Assembly: GCA_022844135.1 (NCBI GenBank)
Contig: JALHMG010000047.1
Coordinates: 1 to 42,389, forward strand
Length of the DNA stretch: 42,389 nucleotides
Direction of reading: 5' to 3'
DNA from: Lysobacterales bacterium
GTDB taxonomy: Bacteria > Pseudomonadota > Gammaproteobacteria > Xanthomonadales > SZUA-5
Below, piece after piece: positions 2,372 through 42,389 of this stretch. The translations under genes were made by a program, and so were the position numbers. Below the pieces are notes generated by a model, which did not search any database, was not told the DNA's origin, and was given only the letters and a program-made list of their open reading frames with translations. Within the stretch, counting starts at the first letter, position 1. Each line of letters opens with the position of its first letter.

Positions 2372-2592
2372 AGCGCGGCTTCTCCGTAGGCGAAGGGTAA
2401 CTTCCTAAAGATAGCCGCAAAGCCGATGACAGAAATGTGTCGAAAGTGTGGGTTGGCGCCCGAGTAGGTTCACCGACGATCGCTGCTGGGGACGGCGCTT
2501 GTGCCTTGCGTGTCCACGTCGACGATCGATGCGATTGCACATTCAAGCTTGCAGCACCGATGCTTGATCGTCGCCTCACTTGTCGCCAGTCC

Positions 2593-3474
2593 ATGCTTCC
2601 AGCCCGCGATTTTGGTTTTGCGCTGCTCATCTGCCTTGCCTGGGCCGGCAACTTTCTGGCTTCCGCTTCGGCGGTGCAGCACTTTCCGCCAATCCTGTTT
2701 ACCGCTTTGCGTTTGCTGTTGGTATTGACCTTACTGCTGCGCTTCCTGAAACCGCTTCCACGATCATTGTGGCGGACCTTCTTTTTTGTCGCTTTGTGCA
2801 ATGGCGCGCTGCATTTCGGATTCAACCATTGGTCGATTGCAGCCGCCGGCGATATCAGCTCGGTGGCGCTGAGTCTGCAAAGCTACATTCCGATGACGGC
2901 GATACTTGCGTGGTGGCTGTTGGACGAGCGGCCAACTGCGATCACCTGGCTGGGAATCGCTGTCGCTTTTGCCGGCGTTGCGATTCTGGCGTTCGATCCG
3001 CTGGTGCTCGATGCGCCCCGGGCGTTGGTGTTATCGCTGGTCGCTGCCGGGACACTGGCGGTTGGCACCGTGTTGCTGCGCCGCTTGCCAGGCTTGCATC
3101 CGTTTCAAGTGCAGGCGTGGGCGGCTGCGATCAGCATCCCGCCGCTGCTGCTGTGGTCGTTCGCGATGGAGCCGTGGTCGCTTGCGACCATCGTCGACGC
3201 CAGCGTGCTCGATTGGGGCGGCGTTGCGTACTCGGCGCTGGCCGCATCGCTGATCGGGCACGGCTTGTTGTACGGTCTCTTGCAACGCCACGCGGTCGCG
3301 CAGGTGACGCCGGTGTTGATGTTGACGCCGGTCTTTGCGGTCGCGCTGGGTGTTTTGGTGTGGGGCGACCGACCCGGTCCGCAACTGCTGATCGGCGGCG
3401 CCTTGGTATTGCTTGGCGTGCTGCTCGTGGTGCTCAAAGGCGGCCGCAAAGTTCAAGCGAAGAGCGCTGCATAA
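2593..3474 (+). CDS. EamA (DMT superfamily) transporter
   Basis: An inner-membrane carrier of the drug/metabolite transporter type with about ten hydrophobic helices in two EamA repeats. The first repeat ends around the segment LLDERPTAITWLGIAVAFAGV, a typical EamA signature, and the second ends with LVWGDRPGPQLLIGGALVLLG. The reading frame is open from 2437, but that upstream stretch is hydrophilic and atypical. I therefore place the start at ATG 2593 (MLPARDFGF), giving 293 aa, the normal family length. The substrate cannot be told; such proteins export amino acids or other metabolites. The 3' end overlaps the convergent thiE gene by 22 bp. Confidence 0.85.
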   Translation: MLPARDFGFALLICLAWAGNFLASASAVQHFPPILFTALRLLLVLTLLLRFLKPLPRSLWRTFFFVALCNGALHFGFNHWSIAAAGDISSVALSLQSYIPMTAILAWWLLDERPTAITWLGIAVAFAGVAILAFDPLVLDAPRALVLSLVAAGTLAVGTVLLRRLPGLHPFQVQAWAAAISIPPLLLWSFAMEPWSLATIVDASVLDWGGVAYSALAASLIGHGLLYGLLQRHAVAQVTPVLMLTPVFAVALGVLVWGDRPGPQLLIGGALVLLGVLLVVLKGGRKVQAKSAA

Positions 3475-37380: not shown

Positions 37381-40089
37381 TTAAGCCGCCTTTGCCTCGG
37401 GCGCCGCCGATCCCGCCAGCTGCCGCAACACGTAAGGCAAAATACCGCCGTGACGGTAGTACTCGACTTCCTTCGGTGTTTCCAGGAGCACGCGCACTTC
37501 GAAGTTCTTGACGCTGCCGTCTTCGGCGACGGCAGTCACTTTGAGGCGCTTGCCGGTGCCATCGCCGATACCTTCGAAGCTGAAGGTTTCGCGACCGGTT
37601 AAGCCCAGCGACGCCGCGTTTTCGCCATCGAGGAACTTGCACGGCAGCACGCCCATGCCGCACAGATTCGAGCGGTGGATGCGCTCAAAGCTCTCGGCGA
37701 TGACAATCTTGACGCCGAGCAGCATGGTGCCTTTGGCCGCCCAGTCGCGCGAGGAACCGGTGCCGTACTCCTTGCCGGCGATCACGATCAGCGGCGTGCC
37801 TGCGGCCTGGAACTGCATCGACGCGTCGTAAATCGACGTGACTTCGCCAGTGGGGAAGTACGTGGTGTAACCGCCCTCTGTGCCCGGCGCCAACTGGTTC
37901 TTCAGACGGATATTGGCGAACGTGCCGCGCATCATGATTTCATGATTGCCTCGGCGCGAGCCGTAAGAGTTGAAGTCAGCGTATTGCACGCCGCGTTCGG
38001 TCAGGTACTTACCGGCCGGCGTGGTCGGTTTGAAATCACCTGCGGGCGAAATGTGATCGGTGGTGATCGAGTCCCCCAGCAACGCGAGCGCGCGCGCACC
38101 CTTGACATCGCTGATCTGGCGCAAGGACATGCTCATGCCATTGAAGTAAGGCGGGTTCTGCACATAAGTCGAGGCATCGTCCCAGGCATACAAATCGCCC
38201 ACCGGCGCCTGTACCGACTGCCAGCGCGCATCGCCTGAGAACACATTGGCGTAGCCCGCTTTGAAGCCTTCCGGCGTGACCGCGGTGCGCACGGTTTCGG
38301 CGATCTCATGATTCGACGGCCAGATGTCCTTCAAGTACACCGGCTGCCCATCGCTACCCGTTCCGAGCGGCTCGGTGGTCAGGTCGATGTCGGCGCGACC
38401 GGCCAGCGCATAAGCAACCACCAGCGGCGGCGAGGCGAGGTAGTTCATGCGCACTTCGGCGTGCACCCGGCCCTCGAAGTTGCGATTGCCGGACAGCACC
38501 GACGCGACGATCAAGTCGCCGTCGCTGACGCCCTTGCTCACTTCCGGAGGCAGCGGACCGGAGTTGCCGATGCAGGTGGTGCAGCCATAGCCGACAACGT
38601 GGAAGCCCAATGCCTCCATGTCGTCCAGCAATCCAGCCTTCCTGAAGTAGTCGGTGGCAACTTGCGAACCTGGCGCCAGGGAGGTCTTGACCCATGGTTT
38701 GGTCTTGAGACCCTTGGCGACCGCGTTGCGCGCAAGCAGCCCAGCGCCCAGCATCACCGACGGGTTGGAGGTATTGGTACACGAGGTGATTGCGGCGATC
38801 ACCACCGCGCCATCGGTAAGCGCGTATTCGCCGCTATCGGACTTCACGGCTGCTTGGCCGGGCGTGGCGCTTTTCGGCTTCGCCGCGCGTGCCGCGGCCA
38901 TGGATTCATGATTCTTGTGATACTCAGACTTCATGTTCGACAGCAGTACGCGGTCCTGCGGACGCTTGGGTCCGGCAAGACTCGGTTGCACGTCGGCGAG
39001 ATTGAGGTGCAGCACATCGGTGTACTCTGCATCCGGCGCGCCTGGCTCGCGGAACAAGCCGTTCAATTTGGCGTACTGCTCGACGAGCGCGATTTGCTCA
39101 TCGCTGCGGCCCGAAAGGCGCAGATAAGTCAGCGCTTCATTGTCGATCGGGAAAATGCCGCAGGTGGCGCCGTATTCAGGCGCCATGTTGGCGATCGTGG
39201 CGCGATCGGCGAGCGGCAGGCTATTCAAGCCTTCGCCAAAGAACTCGACGAATTTCTCGACCACGCCGCGCTTGCGCAACATCTGCGTGACGGTGAGCAC
39301 CAGATCGGTGGCCGTGGCGCCCTCAGGCAATTTGCCGGTGAGTTTGAAGCCGATGACTTCAGGAATCAGCATCGTCGATGGCTGGCCCAGCATCGCGGCC
39401 TCGGCCTCGATGCCACCCACGCCCCAGCCGAGCACGCCGATGCCGTTGATCATGGTCGTATGCGAATCGGTGCCGACGACGGTATCGGGATACGCCCAGG
39501 CCTCGGAGCCATCGGTCGCAAATACCACGCGCGCCAGAAACTCCAGATTGACCTGATGAACGATGCCAGTGCGCGGCGGTACGACCTTGAAATTGTCGAA
39601 CGCGGTCTGTCCCCAGCGCAGGAACGCGTAGCGCTCCTTGTTGCGTTCGAACTCGATACGCGCGTTCAAATCGACCGCGTCATGCGTACCGAAACGATCC
39701 ACCTGCACCGAGTGATCGATCACCAGTTCCGCTGGAATCAGCGGGTTGATCTGGCGCGGATCGCCTCCCAAAGCGCGCATCGCATCGCGCATCGCCGCTA
39801 AATCGACAACGCAGGGCACGCCAGTGAAGTCTTGCATGACCACACGCGCTGGCATGAACGGGATTTCCTGCGTGGACGGCGTCTTCGGATCCCAGTTCAG
39901 CAAGGCTTCGATATGCGTGGGCGTGACGTTCTCGCCGTCCTCGAAGCGCAGCAGGTTCTCGAGCAGGATCTTGAGCGAGAACGGCAGCCGGGCCAGGTTG
40001 AAGCGCGGCGCCAACGCCGTCAAGCGGTGATAGTGATAAGTCTTGCCGCCCGATGTGAACGTGTCGCGCGTGCCGAAGCTGTTGCTCAT
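37381..40089 (-). CDS. acnA: Aconitate hydratase A
   Basis: 902 aa, full length. The cluster ligands are C437 ([10 protein letters not shown]), C503 and C506 ([12 protein letters not shown]), equivalent to C435/C501/C504 of E. coli AcnA. The swivel domain carries the [15 protein letters not shown] motif with the active-site SSR. It interconverts citrate and isocitrate in the TCA cycle. It starts at ATG 40089 and appears monocistronic. Confidence 0.97.
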
Positions 40090-40258
40090 ACGGAATCTCC
40101 GAAGGCTGCCGGTGGGAAATCGGTGAAACCTCAGATTATGGCGTAAGGAGCTTGCGGCGGGTGCGGCAGATGCGAGATGCGGGCAAAGGAACGCGGACGT
40201 TCAGCAACCCCTGCAAGCGTCCGGTCCGGCCCGCGAGCGCAGCTCGCGGGCGTTCGGG
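40090..40258. other. acnA upstream region and start of a hairpin-rich block
   Basis: Apart from acnA's own (unresolved) promoter, it contains the GC hairpin CCCGCGAGC-GCA-GCTCGCGGG near 40230-40250 and a partial GCAAGCGTCCGG copied from the repeat that follows. I see no gene. Confidence 0.5.
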
Positions 40259-40363
40259 CCGCCACGCGGCATGCCGCGTGAGCGGCGGCCCTCACCCGCA
40301 AGCGTCCGGGGGTTCGACTCCCTCCGCCTCCAACAAAAAAACGCCGCCTTGCGGCGGCGTTTT
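40259..40363 (+). repeat. Repeat copy 1: tRNA/tmRNA-like 3' end plus terminator
   Basis: It contains the 16-bp perfect palindrome ACGCGGCATGCCGCGT, then GCAAGCGTCCGGGGGTTCGACTCCCTCCGCCTCCAACA. That stretch reads as a T-arm (GGGGG-TTCGACT-CCCTC) and an acceptor-like strand, as at a tmRNA or tRNA 3' end. A terminator follows (40341-40360). No matching 5' half of a tRNA or tmRNA lies upstream. The second copy is at 42164-42270. Confidence 0.8.
40341..40363 (+). terminator. Intrinsic terminator in repeat copy 1
   Basis: ACGCCGCC (40341-40348) pairs with GGCGGCGT (40353-40360) around TTGC, with an A-run before and TTTT after. The flanking A and T tracts make it bidirectional. Confidence 0.85.
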
Positions 40364-40461
40364 GTTGTTGGTGGCGGATGGATGACGGTTCAATTCCGCC
40401 TTTCTCCATTAAATAGCAATGCAGCGGGCTGGCGAGGAAGCGCGCGTGAACTCGGCACACA

Positions 40462-41194
40462 TCAGGTCGCGCCACTGCGGGCATGCGCCTCCAACCACTG
40501 TCGTCCGAGAGCAGTGAGCCGGTAACGTTGCGCGCGACTGTTCGGTTTTTCGGGGAGAGTCATTTCGATCACGCCCAGTTCGAGCGCCGGTGCAAGATAG
40601 GTCTTGCGGAAGTGCTCGCGGTCGGCCAGCGCCAGTGCCGCCTGCATAGCCTTCCGGGTCATTTCCCCATCGATCCGCGCCAACAGTGACCCAACTTGCG
40701 GGGTAACCTGCGGGGTGACTTGCGGGGTAACTTGCGGGGCAACCAGGTCTGCCGCCGGCCTCGGAATCACGGCCTTGAACTCGTTGCCGTCGACGTCGTC
40801 GAGTAGCGTCGTCTCCGGCCAGTCTTCCAGGACGCGCGGGATGCCGGTGCCGATGCCACGATACGGCAGGATCTTCACGGCGTGATCGGTCAAGGTCGGG
40901 TTGCGCCGGTTCGACTTGCCTTTCCGGATCTGCGCCGTGTTGAGGTTGTCGGGCAGGTGGCCGGGGCTGATGATTTCAATGCGGTCGGCGAAAATCAGCA
41001 ACCGAATCGACGCGCTAGTGAAGTAGTCGCGGTGGATCAGCGCGTTGACGAGCAACTCGATGATCGCCTGTTCCGGCACCTCCAGAACGCCCAACGAATT
41101 GAAGTTCTGGCCGGCCTGCACGTGGTGCAGGTTGCGCTTGATGAAGGCGAGGCTGCGCTGGTACTGCTCCAGCAGTGGTTGGTAGGCGTATCGG
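40462..41194 (-). pseudogene. Truncated COG2865-type ATP-binding protein (AlbA_2/RecG-like C-terminal part)
   Basis: The readable part starts around RYAYQPLLEQYQRSLAFIKRN and includes the LVNALIHRDYF, FADRIEIISPGHLP and YRGIGTGIPRVLEDWP motifs of the HATPase_c_4 domain. A PQVTPQVTPQVTPQV repeat and a winged-helix C-terminus (ALELGVIEMTLPEKPNSRAQRYRLT) follow. The normal N-terminal AlbA_2 domain is missing: upstream in this frame the sequence becomes the hsdR fragment in another frame. It is broken by an out-of-frame junction near 41178-41194. Intact relatives often accompany restriction or defence loci. Confidence 0.8.
40692..40740. repeat. 12-bp tandem repeat encoding PQVT units
   Basis: Four near-identical units of TTGCGGGGTAAC-type sequence encode PQVTPQVTPQVTPQV on the minus strand. 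Such PQV(T) repeats are a recurring feature of this protein family between its ATPase and winged-helix parts. Confidence 0.75.
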
Positions 41195-41936
41195 GCGATT
41201 TGTTGCTCAGAAACTCGGGGCTGTGCTTGATGACATTGAGGTTGTTGTCGCCAAGCACTTCGTTCTCAAGCGCGTCGTCTTCGCTGGCCAGGAGTTGGCT
41301 GAGGTCCAGCGTTTCCTCTTCGCGAAAATAGTTGAAGACGGGCGAGTCGTAAGAGGCGCTCGCATAGAACGCGCCTTCGACCGGCTGCGGCGACCCATCC
41401 TCGTACTCCATGTTGTTGGAGAAGACCATCAATTGCGTGATGTTGATGAAGCGTCTGAAGCGCGGGTTGCGGCTTCGCGTGATGATGCGGTTGCGTTCGG
41501 CAAGCACGCCCTCGCGGTTGTTGGGCTTTTTCACCTCGATGAAGGCGAGCGGCATTCCGTTGATGAGCAGCGTGATGTCGGGACGAAATTCATCGTCGCC
41601 GCTCTTGCAAGTCAGCTCGGTGACAACATGAAAGCTGTTGGTGTGGAAGTCTTCGAAGTCGATCAGCCGAATGCCTGAGCGTTCGGTAAGCCGGTCGTAA
41701 AAGGCTTGGCCGAGATCTTCGTTGTCAAGAAGCAGTTTGACATCGGCCAAAAGCCGAGGGATGTCTTCTGCCGCCATGGAAGGGTTGATTCGCGCCATCG
41801 CCGCCGTAAACAGGGCGGGGAAGATGTTGGTCTCTTCATCCCAACTCGCGCCTTTCAGGGATTGGTAGGTGTAGCCGAGCCGCACCAGGTGCAAGATGCA
41901 CGGAATCTTGACCCGGGAGTCTTCGCTAAAGACCAT
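41178..41936 (-). pseudogene. Truncated type I restriction endonuclease subunit (HsdR N-terminal part)
   Basis: About 252 residues homologous to the HsdR N-terminus from ATG 41936 (MVFSEDSRVKIPCILHL). The nuclease motif D120...E134-V-K136 (RPDITLL..AFIEVKK) is intact, as are NREGVLAERN and TQLMVFSNNMEYEDG. Homology ends at NKSPDTPTN, exactly before the helicase part. The frame then runs into the other pseudogene out of frame and stops at 41037. The ~700-residue helicase and HsdS-interacting parts, and hsdM/hsdS, are absent from the window. Confidence 0.88.
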
Positions 41937-42049
41937 TAGCAGTGCTTTCCCTCGTAGTGCAATGAATCTATCAGCTGGCGCCGGTGGCGGCCATCCGAGT
42001 CGACGAATCGGAATTGAGTTTCAACCTCGGCGGCAAAGGGCAATCGCTT

Positions 42050-42086
42050 CCTCGCCTCGGCGAGGAACCCACCCATGGCGCATGGG
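42050..42086. other. Two adjacent GC hairpins upstream of repeat copy 2
   Basis: CCTCGCC-TC-GGCGAGG (42050-42065) and CCCATG-GCG-CATGGG (42072-42086) form strong adjacent stems. No gene is visible between 41937 and 42131. Confidence 0.45.
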
Positions 42087-42131
42087 ATCCGTTTTGAGAC
42101 CAGCAGGGAAAAGCCAAATGGCGCTTCGTGA

Positions 42132-42158
42132 TGGGTGGAGGCGAGTCTAACCCCCGGT
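42132..42158 (-). repeat. Inverted partial copy of the tRNA/tmRNA-like 3' end
   Basis: The minus strand reads CCGGGGGTTAGACTCGCC followed by TCCACCCA, a diverged version of the T-arm/acceptor end found on the plus strand at 42210-42239. The two face each other, so the whole block 42132-42239 can fold into one long imperfect hairpin around the CGCGGCATGCCGCG palindrome. Confidence 0.6.
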
Positions 42159-42163
42159 CCTGC

Positions 42164-42270
42164 CCGCCACGCGGCATGCCGCGTAAGCGGCGGCCCTCAC
42201 CCGCAAGCGTCCGGGGGTTCGACTCCCCCGCCTCGACCAACAAAAAAAACGCCGCCTTGCGGCGGCGTTT
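42164..42270 (+). repeat. Repeat copy 2: tRNA/tmRNA-like 3' end plus terminator
   Basis: Nearly identical to 40259-40363: palindrome ACGCGGCATGCCGCGT, GGTTCGACTCCCCC T-arm, GCCTCGACCA end, A-run and the same terminator. The two copies lie in direct orientation 1.9 kb apart and bracket the two pseudogenes. The tract differs by a few substitutions and small indels near the acceptor end. Confidence 0.8.
42249..42270 (+). terminator. Intrinsic terminator in repeat copy 2
   Basis: CGCCGCC (42250-42256) pairs with GGCGGCG (42261-42267) around TTGC, followed by TTT and then directly by the intron-like sequence. The terminator's T-run is truncated to three bases by the insertion. Confidence 0.85.
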
Positions 42271-42389
42271 GTGCGCCCTTGATGGCGCAGATACAGCACG
42301 GTGCAAGTCCGTGTCGGGGGATGCCAAGACCCCGTAGCTGACCGTAACTGCGTCGCTGCGAGGCGGGGTGGGGAGCAACGCGAGGCGAA
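42271..42389 (+). mobile_element. 5' end of a probable class C group II intron (cut by window edge)
   Basis: It begins GTGCGCC, pairs with GGCGCA (TGCGCC/GGCGCA around CTTGAT) and continues with the ACGGTGCAAGTCCGT segment, the pattern of domain I in bacterial class C introns. These introns insert just after intrinsic terminators, exactly the location here (terminator TTT then GTGCG). In copy 1 of the repeat, the same position continues without the intron. The reverse transcriptase ORF would lie beyond the window. Confidence 0.72.

Follow-up and report, generated by a model that had tools for sequence, protein, structure and literature searches.

The window, which is the whole of contig C47 (42,389 bp) of the Lysobacterales genome studied here (G000; 5.34 Mb in 75 contigs, 99.8% complete), possessed two direct repeats near its right end, between acnA and the contig end (Table 1). 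They aligned over 103 pairs with one mismatch (102/103 identical) and gaps of 3, 1 and 1 nt, and the order of parts was the same in both: a hairpin GCGGCATGCCGC, then CCCTCACCCGCAAGCGTCC, a T-arm-like stretch GGGGGTTCGACTCCC, CCGCCT.., an A-run and a stem-loop terminator. The acceptor-like end was not alike between the copies (CCTCCAACA versus CCTCGACCAACA). No tRNA or tmRNA gene was called at the copies by ARAGORN or by Rfam at gathering score, no gene body was found by either upstream of them, and the tag reading frame, pseudoknots and 5' acceptor strand of a functional tmRNA were absent on the same evidence. The preliminary description, which had reported direct repeats of about 105 bp bracketing a pseudogene island, each with a T-arm-like part, an acceptor-like end and a terminator but no gene body, was borne out on these points.

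Table 1. Features at the right end of the window, with positions counted from the first base of the contig.
Feature	Position	Strand	Remarks
acnA, left neighbour of copy 1	37381-40089	-	ORF; name from reading the protein
REP-like hairpin adjoining copy 1	40229-40251	+	
Direct repeat copy 1	40259-40362	+	104 nt; hairpin, CCCTCACCCGCAAGCGTCC, ssrA-3'-end-like T-arm/acceptor, terminator
33-base run ending in the T-loop	40286-40318	+	same 33 bases at 42191-42223 and in G008:C15
ssrA 3'-end-like segment of copy 1	40307-40336	+	93% to G004 ssrA, E 2.1e-5
Terminator-like stem-loop, copy 1	40338-40363	both	
ORF with HATPase_c_4 and Fic-like_C	40462-41121	-	Pfam
ORF with HSDR_N (E 5e-27)	41037-41936	-	covers positions 11-213 of the 674 of the hsdR model, first third only
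Third ssrA-3'-end relic, inverted and decayed	42134-42160	-	5-nt T-arm deletion; 3 bases from copy 2
Direct repeat copy 2	42164-42270	+	107 nt; right edge cut by the putative intron
ssrA 3'-end-like segment of copy 2	42212-42240	+	93% to G004 ssrA, E 2.6e-4
Terminator-like stem-loop, copy 2	42247-42270	-	minus strand alone; the plus strand runs from the stem straight into the putative intron
Putative group II-type intron, multi-copy, 5' end	42271-42389	+	abuts the terminator stem of copy 2; contig ends within it

Two ORFs lay between the copies, overlapping at 41037-41121 in different frames. The one with HATPase_c_4 and Fic-like_C domains presumably stems from an AlbA_2/RecG-like type gene, of which it would be the C-terminal part. 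Both ORFs searched in this interval are gene fragments (HsdR and HATPase_c_4/Fic-like_C) within a 1.8-kb remnant, in line with the restriction/defence relics that had been noted between the copies. Pfam revealed no integrase in these two ORFs, and nothing between the copies was recognised as a prophage gene. At the genome level, a PF00589 search gave four matches, on contigs C59, C11 (two) and C5, while relatives of the serine recombinase found downstream of ssrA in another genus (see below) were absent at E 1e-5; neither search matched the window's contig. To the left, similarity to four relatives (G001, G004, G006 and G008) ended near the acnA start; none of the four had the window's DNA there, and no empty site upstream of acnA was found among them. 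G004 and G008 had a 543-base stretch upstream of acnA in common with each other. Three exact patterns gave 0 matches each against viral contigs, and among the plasmid and phage matches listed (20 of 51 plasmid records) no place covered 80% of the query, the places listed matching the gene fragments or the terminator.

Copy 1, used as a query against the whole genome, had seven matches, namely the two copies and five others: two palindromic matches within copy 1 on the opposite strand, one to a tRNA-Arg 3' end (C12, E 0.007) and hairpins on contigs C1 and C2. A dispersed 105-bp repeat family was ruled out by this count, the whole unit being present in two copies only. The upstream hairpin alone did recur at other loci, unlike the whole unit, so that the dispersed hairpin family suggested earlier as an alternative holds for this part and fails for the whole unit.

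Further repeat-like traces were found next to the copies. The inverted relic beside copy 2 scored 18, compared with a top score of 14 in 20 random first-order Markov sequences of 42 kb and 12.5 for the next non-copy place in the window. At copy 1, a 15-nt direct repeat (14/15 identical; 40210-40224 and 40295-40309) was located on either side of the REP-like hairpin pair, an arrangement that resembles a target duplication. To the right of copy 1, positions 40368-40419 contained an additional T-arm-like stretch, GACGGTTCAATTCCGCC, which matched contig C89 of G006 (L082) with 94% identity over 52 bases.

The core of the repeat matched ssrA of a genome of the same family (G004), which was used as the query, with E-values over the 5.34-Mb genome that put the likeness of both copies to an ssrA 3' end beyond what chance would be expected to give. 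When 38 distinct tDNA 3' ends were compared (15 from tmRNA and 23 from tRNA, the latter being fewer than the genome's full set), 13 of the 15 tmRNA ends scored above the best of the tRNA ends, one tied with it and one scored lower. The best tRNA 3' end, that of tRNA-Arg, reached 22 against 29, and a tRNA origin of the core was rejected with respect to these 23 sampled ends. The Rfam tmRNA model gave 21.4 bits for copy 1 and 18.1 bits for copy 2, both below its cut-off; as tRNA genes of the same genome reached up to 30 bits, these scores do not discriminate between origins of the core. From the sequence comparisons we conclude that the repeat core most probably corresponds to the 3' end of ssrA and not to a tRNA 3' end. 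The likeness to a tRNA or tmRNA 3' end first seen in the letters of the repeat is supported for tmRNA, with 93% identity to ssrA of relatives and tmRNA ends ranking above tRNA ends.

Relatives had to serve for this comparison since the assembly lacks the 3' end of the genome's own ssrA. What it contains of the gene is the first 130 nt, at the start of contig C45 (L056 1-130). In G001, another species of the same genus, an equal stretch lay at the end of contig C46 (L066 1504-1633) and stopped at the same base, and the ends of these two contigs were identical for exactly 119 nt. The same number recurred at the ends of contigs bearing the intron described below, where intron length plus shared upstream sequence came to 119 nt in five of eight cases (202, 123 and 104 in the other three). 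As the 119-nt length recurs at both kinds of contig end, the cut in ssrA is best explained as a break of the assembly graph. Both genomes would stem from a single graph with k near 119, in which ssrA was broken at this place. That the gene has been lost or split in G000 was rejected on the common stopping base and the 119 nt shared with G001. A truncated ssrA in such assemblies can accordingly be a graph break that mimics loss of tmRNA, rather than gene loss. Among 41 genomes, ssrA scored above the Rfam cut-off in 32, the filters losing some weak matches, and was below it or absent in nine; as one of these nine (G026) was assembled in about two contigs, not every absence need be an assembly break. 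The ssrA of G004, searched against five genomes of the family, had matches in two (G001 and G007) and none in G002, G003 and G005. In G007, ssrA also ended at a contig end (G007:C843, L065), within the T-loop.

Copy 2 ended exactly where a sequence starting with GTGCG.. began. This sequence was found at eight places in the genome (the window and L058-L064), all eight of which ran to a contig end. Six of the eight junctions followed a REP-like hairpin ending in CTCGGCGTTC, one followed the copy 2 terminator, and one (L059) followed a weak hairpin only. Insertion directly after a terminator or hairpin, a trait of group IIC, was found for positions 42271-42389. We read them as the likely 5' end of a group II intron whose class inserts after terminators. 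Such insertion has been documented for one class of group II introns (PMC8919778). Because the intron-type sequence begins at 42271, the right edge of copy 2 is an insertion edge. The starts of contigs C1 and C32 lay in an intron 3' end (RF00029, 51.5 bits), and no link was found between these RF00029 domains and either the intron 5' end at 42271 or copy 2. The right flank beyond the intron was sought in 67 of the 75 contig starts, the window's own included, and in some contig ends, and was not located there; a domain V pattern gave 0 matches in the genome.

The left half of the repeat was also found in another genus of the same family. The 33-base run common to both copies and to G008, a MAG with 7% contamination, spanned CGG to GGTTCGAC, beyond which the window continued with TCCC.. 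and G008 with CTCGG.., so that the two diverged inside the T-loop. Its 29-base core CCCTCACCCGCAAGCGTCCGGGGGTTCGA, searched with up to three mismatches in 398 genomes drawn from the order, had two exact occurrences in the window, one in G008:C15 and none in the other 396 genomes. A 27-base core likewise had one stretch in a collection of genome contigs, on the same G008 contig, records near the window's genome being possibly omitted from that collection. Since the CTCACCC inside this left half is the tail of REP-like hairpins that recur in the family, the distinctive common part is nearer 20 nt. G008:C15 possessed a second body-less tmRNA-3'-like end on the opposite strand, about 55 bases from the 29-mer. 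One left half and two right halves meeting in the T-loop would be the expected trace of site-specific recombination in ssrA, and are suggestive, not proof, of it. On that contig (L114 8135-8243), the body-less end and the 29-mer point towards each other with a single terminator between them, and the neighbouring genes were AbiE-like and Mrr-like by names read from their proteins.

Elements next to ssrA were found elsewhere in the family. On contig C56 of G008 (L048 5052-7949), ssrA was followed by a terminator, a 159-aa ORF with no Pfam match and, about 1.2 kb on, a large serine recombinase of 463 aa with Resolvase, Recombinase and Zn_ribbon_recom domains. The DNA from CCACCA through the terminator was also present in G006, both after the ssrA of contig C81 and, behind other sequence, on contig C149 (L116), and the likeness of G004 to G008 ended within 2 bases of the ssrA end. 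These junctions suggest that elements insert at ssrA 3' ends in the family. The G008 element did not make the copies in the window, because its junction with ssrA lies at CCACCA instead of the T-loop and because its terminator is unlike theirs. G006:C149 thus bears an element end of the G008 type with no ssrA in front, and it also possessed a second, more distant large serine recombinase.

The reading that we favour, at a probability of roughly 0.55, is that the two copies are decayed attachment-site scars of islands that targeted ssrA and now lie beside acnA; the attachment step itself we infer, with recombination as the origin, the identity of the element and rearrangement away from ssrA all presumed. 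An integrative element recombining at the ssrA 3' end would carry a fragment of that end in its own attachment site, and upon integration one junction would rebuild ssrA while the other would keep the displaced 3' fragment with no gene body. Two such displaced ends, in the same orientation, would have persisted around the 1.8-kb island remnant after loss of the recombinase and most of the cargo, and rearrangement would have left the array beside acnA and apart from ssrA. What is observed in favour of attachment-site scars is the identity with the ssrA 3' end, the missing body, the direct orientation, the fragmentary contents and a left half common to another genus up to the T-loop; the divergence from G008 inside the T-loop, as at a recombination point, also counts for them, as do the elements found at ssrA elsewhere in the family. 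Against them stand the left neighbour acnA, where an intact ssrA would be expected at the head of the array, an ssrA whose 5' part is on C45, the differing junction and terminator of the G008 element, the 7% contamination of the G008 MAG, the two recombinase searches with no match on the window's contig, the lack of an empty site in the four relatives, and the REP-like hairpin with its CTCACCC tail, which forms part of the left half and recurs in the family. The two ends of a single insertion would not resemble each other to the left and to the right of the putative crossover, as these copies do; the pair would take two insertion rounds or a duplication. A complete island is not claimed, because intact ssrA is absent from the contig and its 5' part lies on C45; no cognate intact gene was found at the other end in the same orientation, nor an integrase in the interval. 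The earlier suggestion of distal att sites left by islands therefore keeps its ssrA-3' origin (93% identity, tmRNA ends ranking top), whereas the att role is weakened by a contig with no recombinase match and an ssrA placed on C45.

The main rival to attachment-site scars, possible though in our view less likely, is a composite block made of a REP-like hairpin, an old ssrA 3' fragment and a terminator, which was duplicated segmentally or by homologous recombination and was never an att site. It would explain why the copies are alike across their entire 104-107 nt and why the hairpin part recurs elsewhere, and the inverted relic beside copy 2 and the 15-nt direct repeat around the hairpin pair at copy 1 would be more products of the same shuffling; the two recombinase searches with no match on the contig also agree with it. 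Such a block does not account as readily for a run common to G008 that stops in the T-loop and not at the hairpin, or for the presence of two copies only, which bracket gene fragments of foreign type. It is also conceivable, albeit unlikely, that the elements concerned bring along the ssrA 3' end and its terminator as a portable attachment block; ectopic copies of it, such as the pair beside acnA, would become new landing sites apart from ssrA, and terminator-seeking group II introns would then home to the block as well.

Two other explanations are less likely still. The copies might be present-day terminators or 3' ends of small RNAs beside relic genes, their T-arm likeness being kept by function, and the strong stem-loops (8 terminator-like sites in 39900-42389, compared with 2.8 expected from shuffles) and a folding better than 200/200 shuffles for copy 1 and 192/200 for copy 2 speak for this. 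Nevertheless, the acceptor end differs between the copies and the 29-base core is absent from 396 of the 398 genomes, which makes this explanation improbable; 0 promoter-like sites were found in the same interval, which says little as 0.5 were expected by chance. That a genuinely split or permuted ssrA has its 3' part in the copies and its 5' part on C45 is by far harder to credit: although G000 and G001 both show just the first 130 nt of the gene, the stop at one base and the exact 119 nt, a length also seen at five of the eight intron ends, point to the assembly, the copies contain no ssrA sequence preceding the T-arm, and the matches of the permuted-tmRNA model, at 29.1 and 27.8 bits, fell on the 5' piece and below the cut-off of 47.

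The repeat pair looks like a genomic fossil of an ordinary, already known kind. The displaced tDNA (attR) fragments outlined for Islander (PMC4383910) likewise include a body-less tmRNA 3' fragment at the edge of foreign DNA, whereas here two alike fragments lie beside acnA, with no integrase and no intact ssrA opposite them on the contig. Tandem islands described from Dehalococcoides have direct repeats of the ssrA 3' end at their edges, the T-loop as their proposed insertion point, a conserved motif directly upstream of those repeats and a serine recombinase (PMC3146451). The repeated ssrA 3' ends, the change point in the T-loop and the short upstream motif are alike in the window; in Dehalococcoides, however, the repeats are found no more than 100 kb downstream of ssrA, and an integration module is present in sixteen islands, while the window has a single decayed array in which no integration module was found. 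Partial tDNA copies have been taken as relics of integration, as here, in work on tRNA gene fragments (PMC9897764), and tRNA fragments are reported for Xylella prophages (PMC2605562); in the window tmRNA appears to be the source, and the interval between the copies showed no recognisable prophage gene. The upstream hairpin with its CTCACCC tail is similar to the REP/REPIN palindromes presented in PMC3116915 and PMC2817692, although the whole 105-bp unit has two copies only. Among the titles and abstract openings listed, none described ssrA scars in Lysobacterales, which is no claim of their absence from print. A probable ssrA integration fossil is hereby recorded in a little-studied Lysobacterales lineage, and the serine-recombinase element after ssrA in G008 is evidence for ssrA as an integration site in the family.

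Elsewhere in the window, ARAGORN placed a tRNA-Lys at 2939-3011, inside a long plus-strand ORF (2437-3474), which is probably a false call. Contig C46 of the same genome opens with almost the same sequence as the first 115 bases of the window, a further shared repeat edge.
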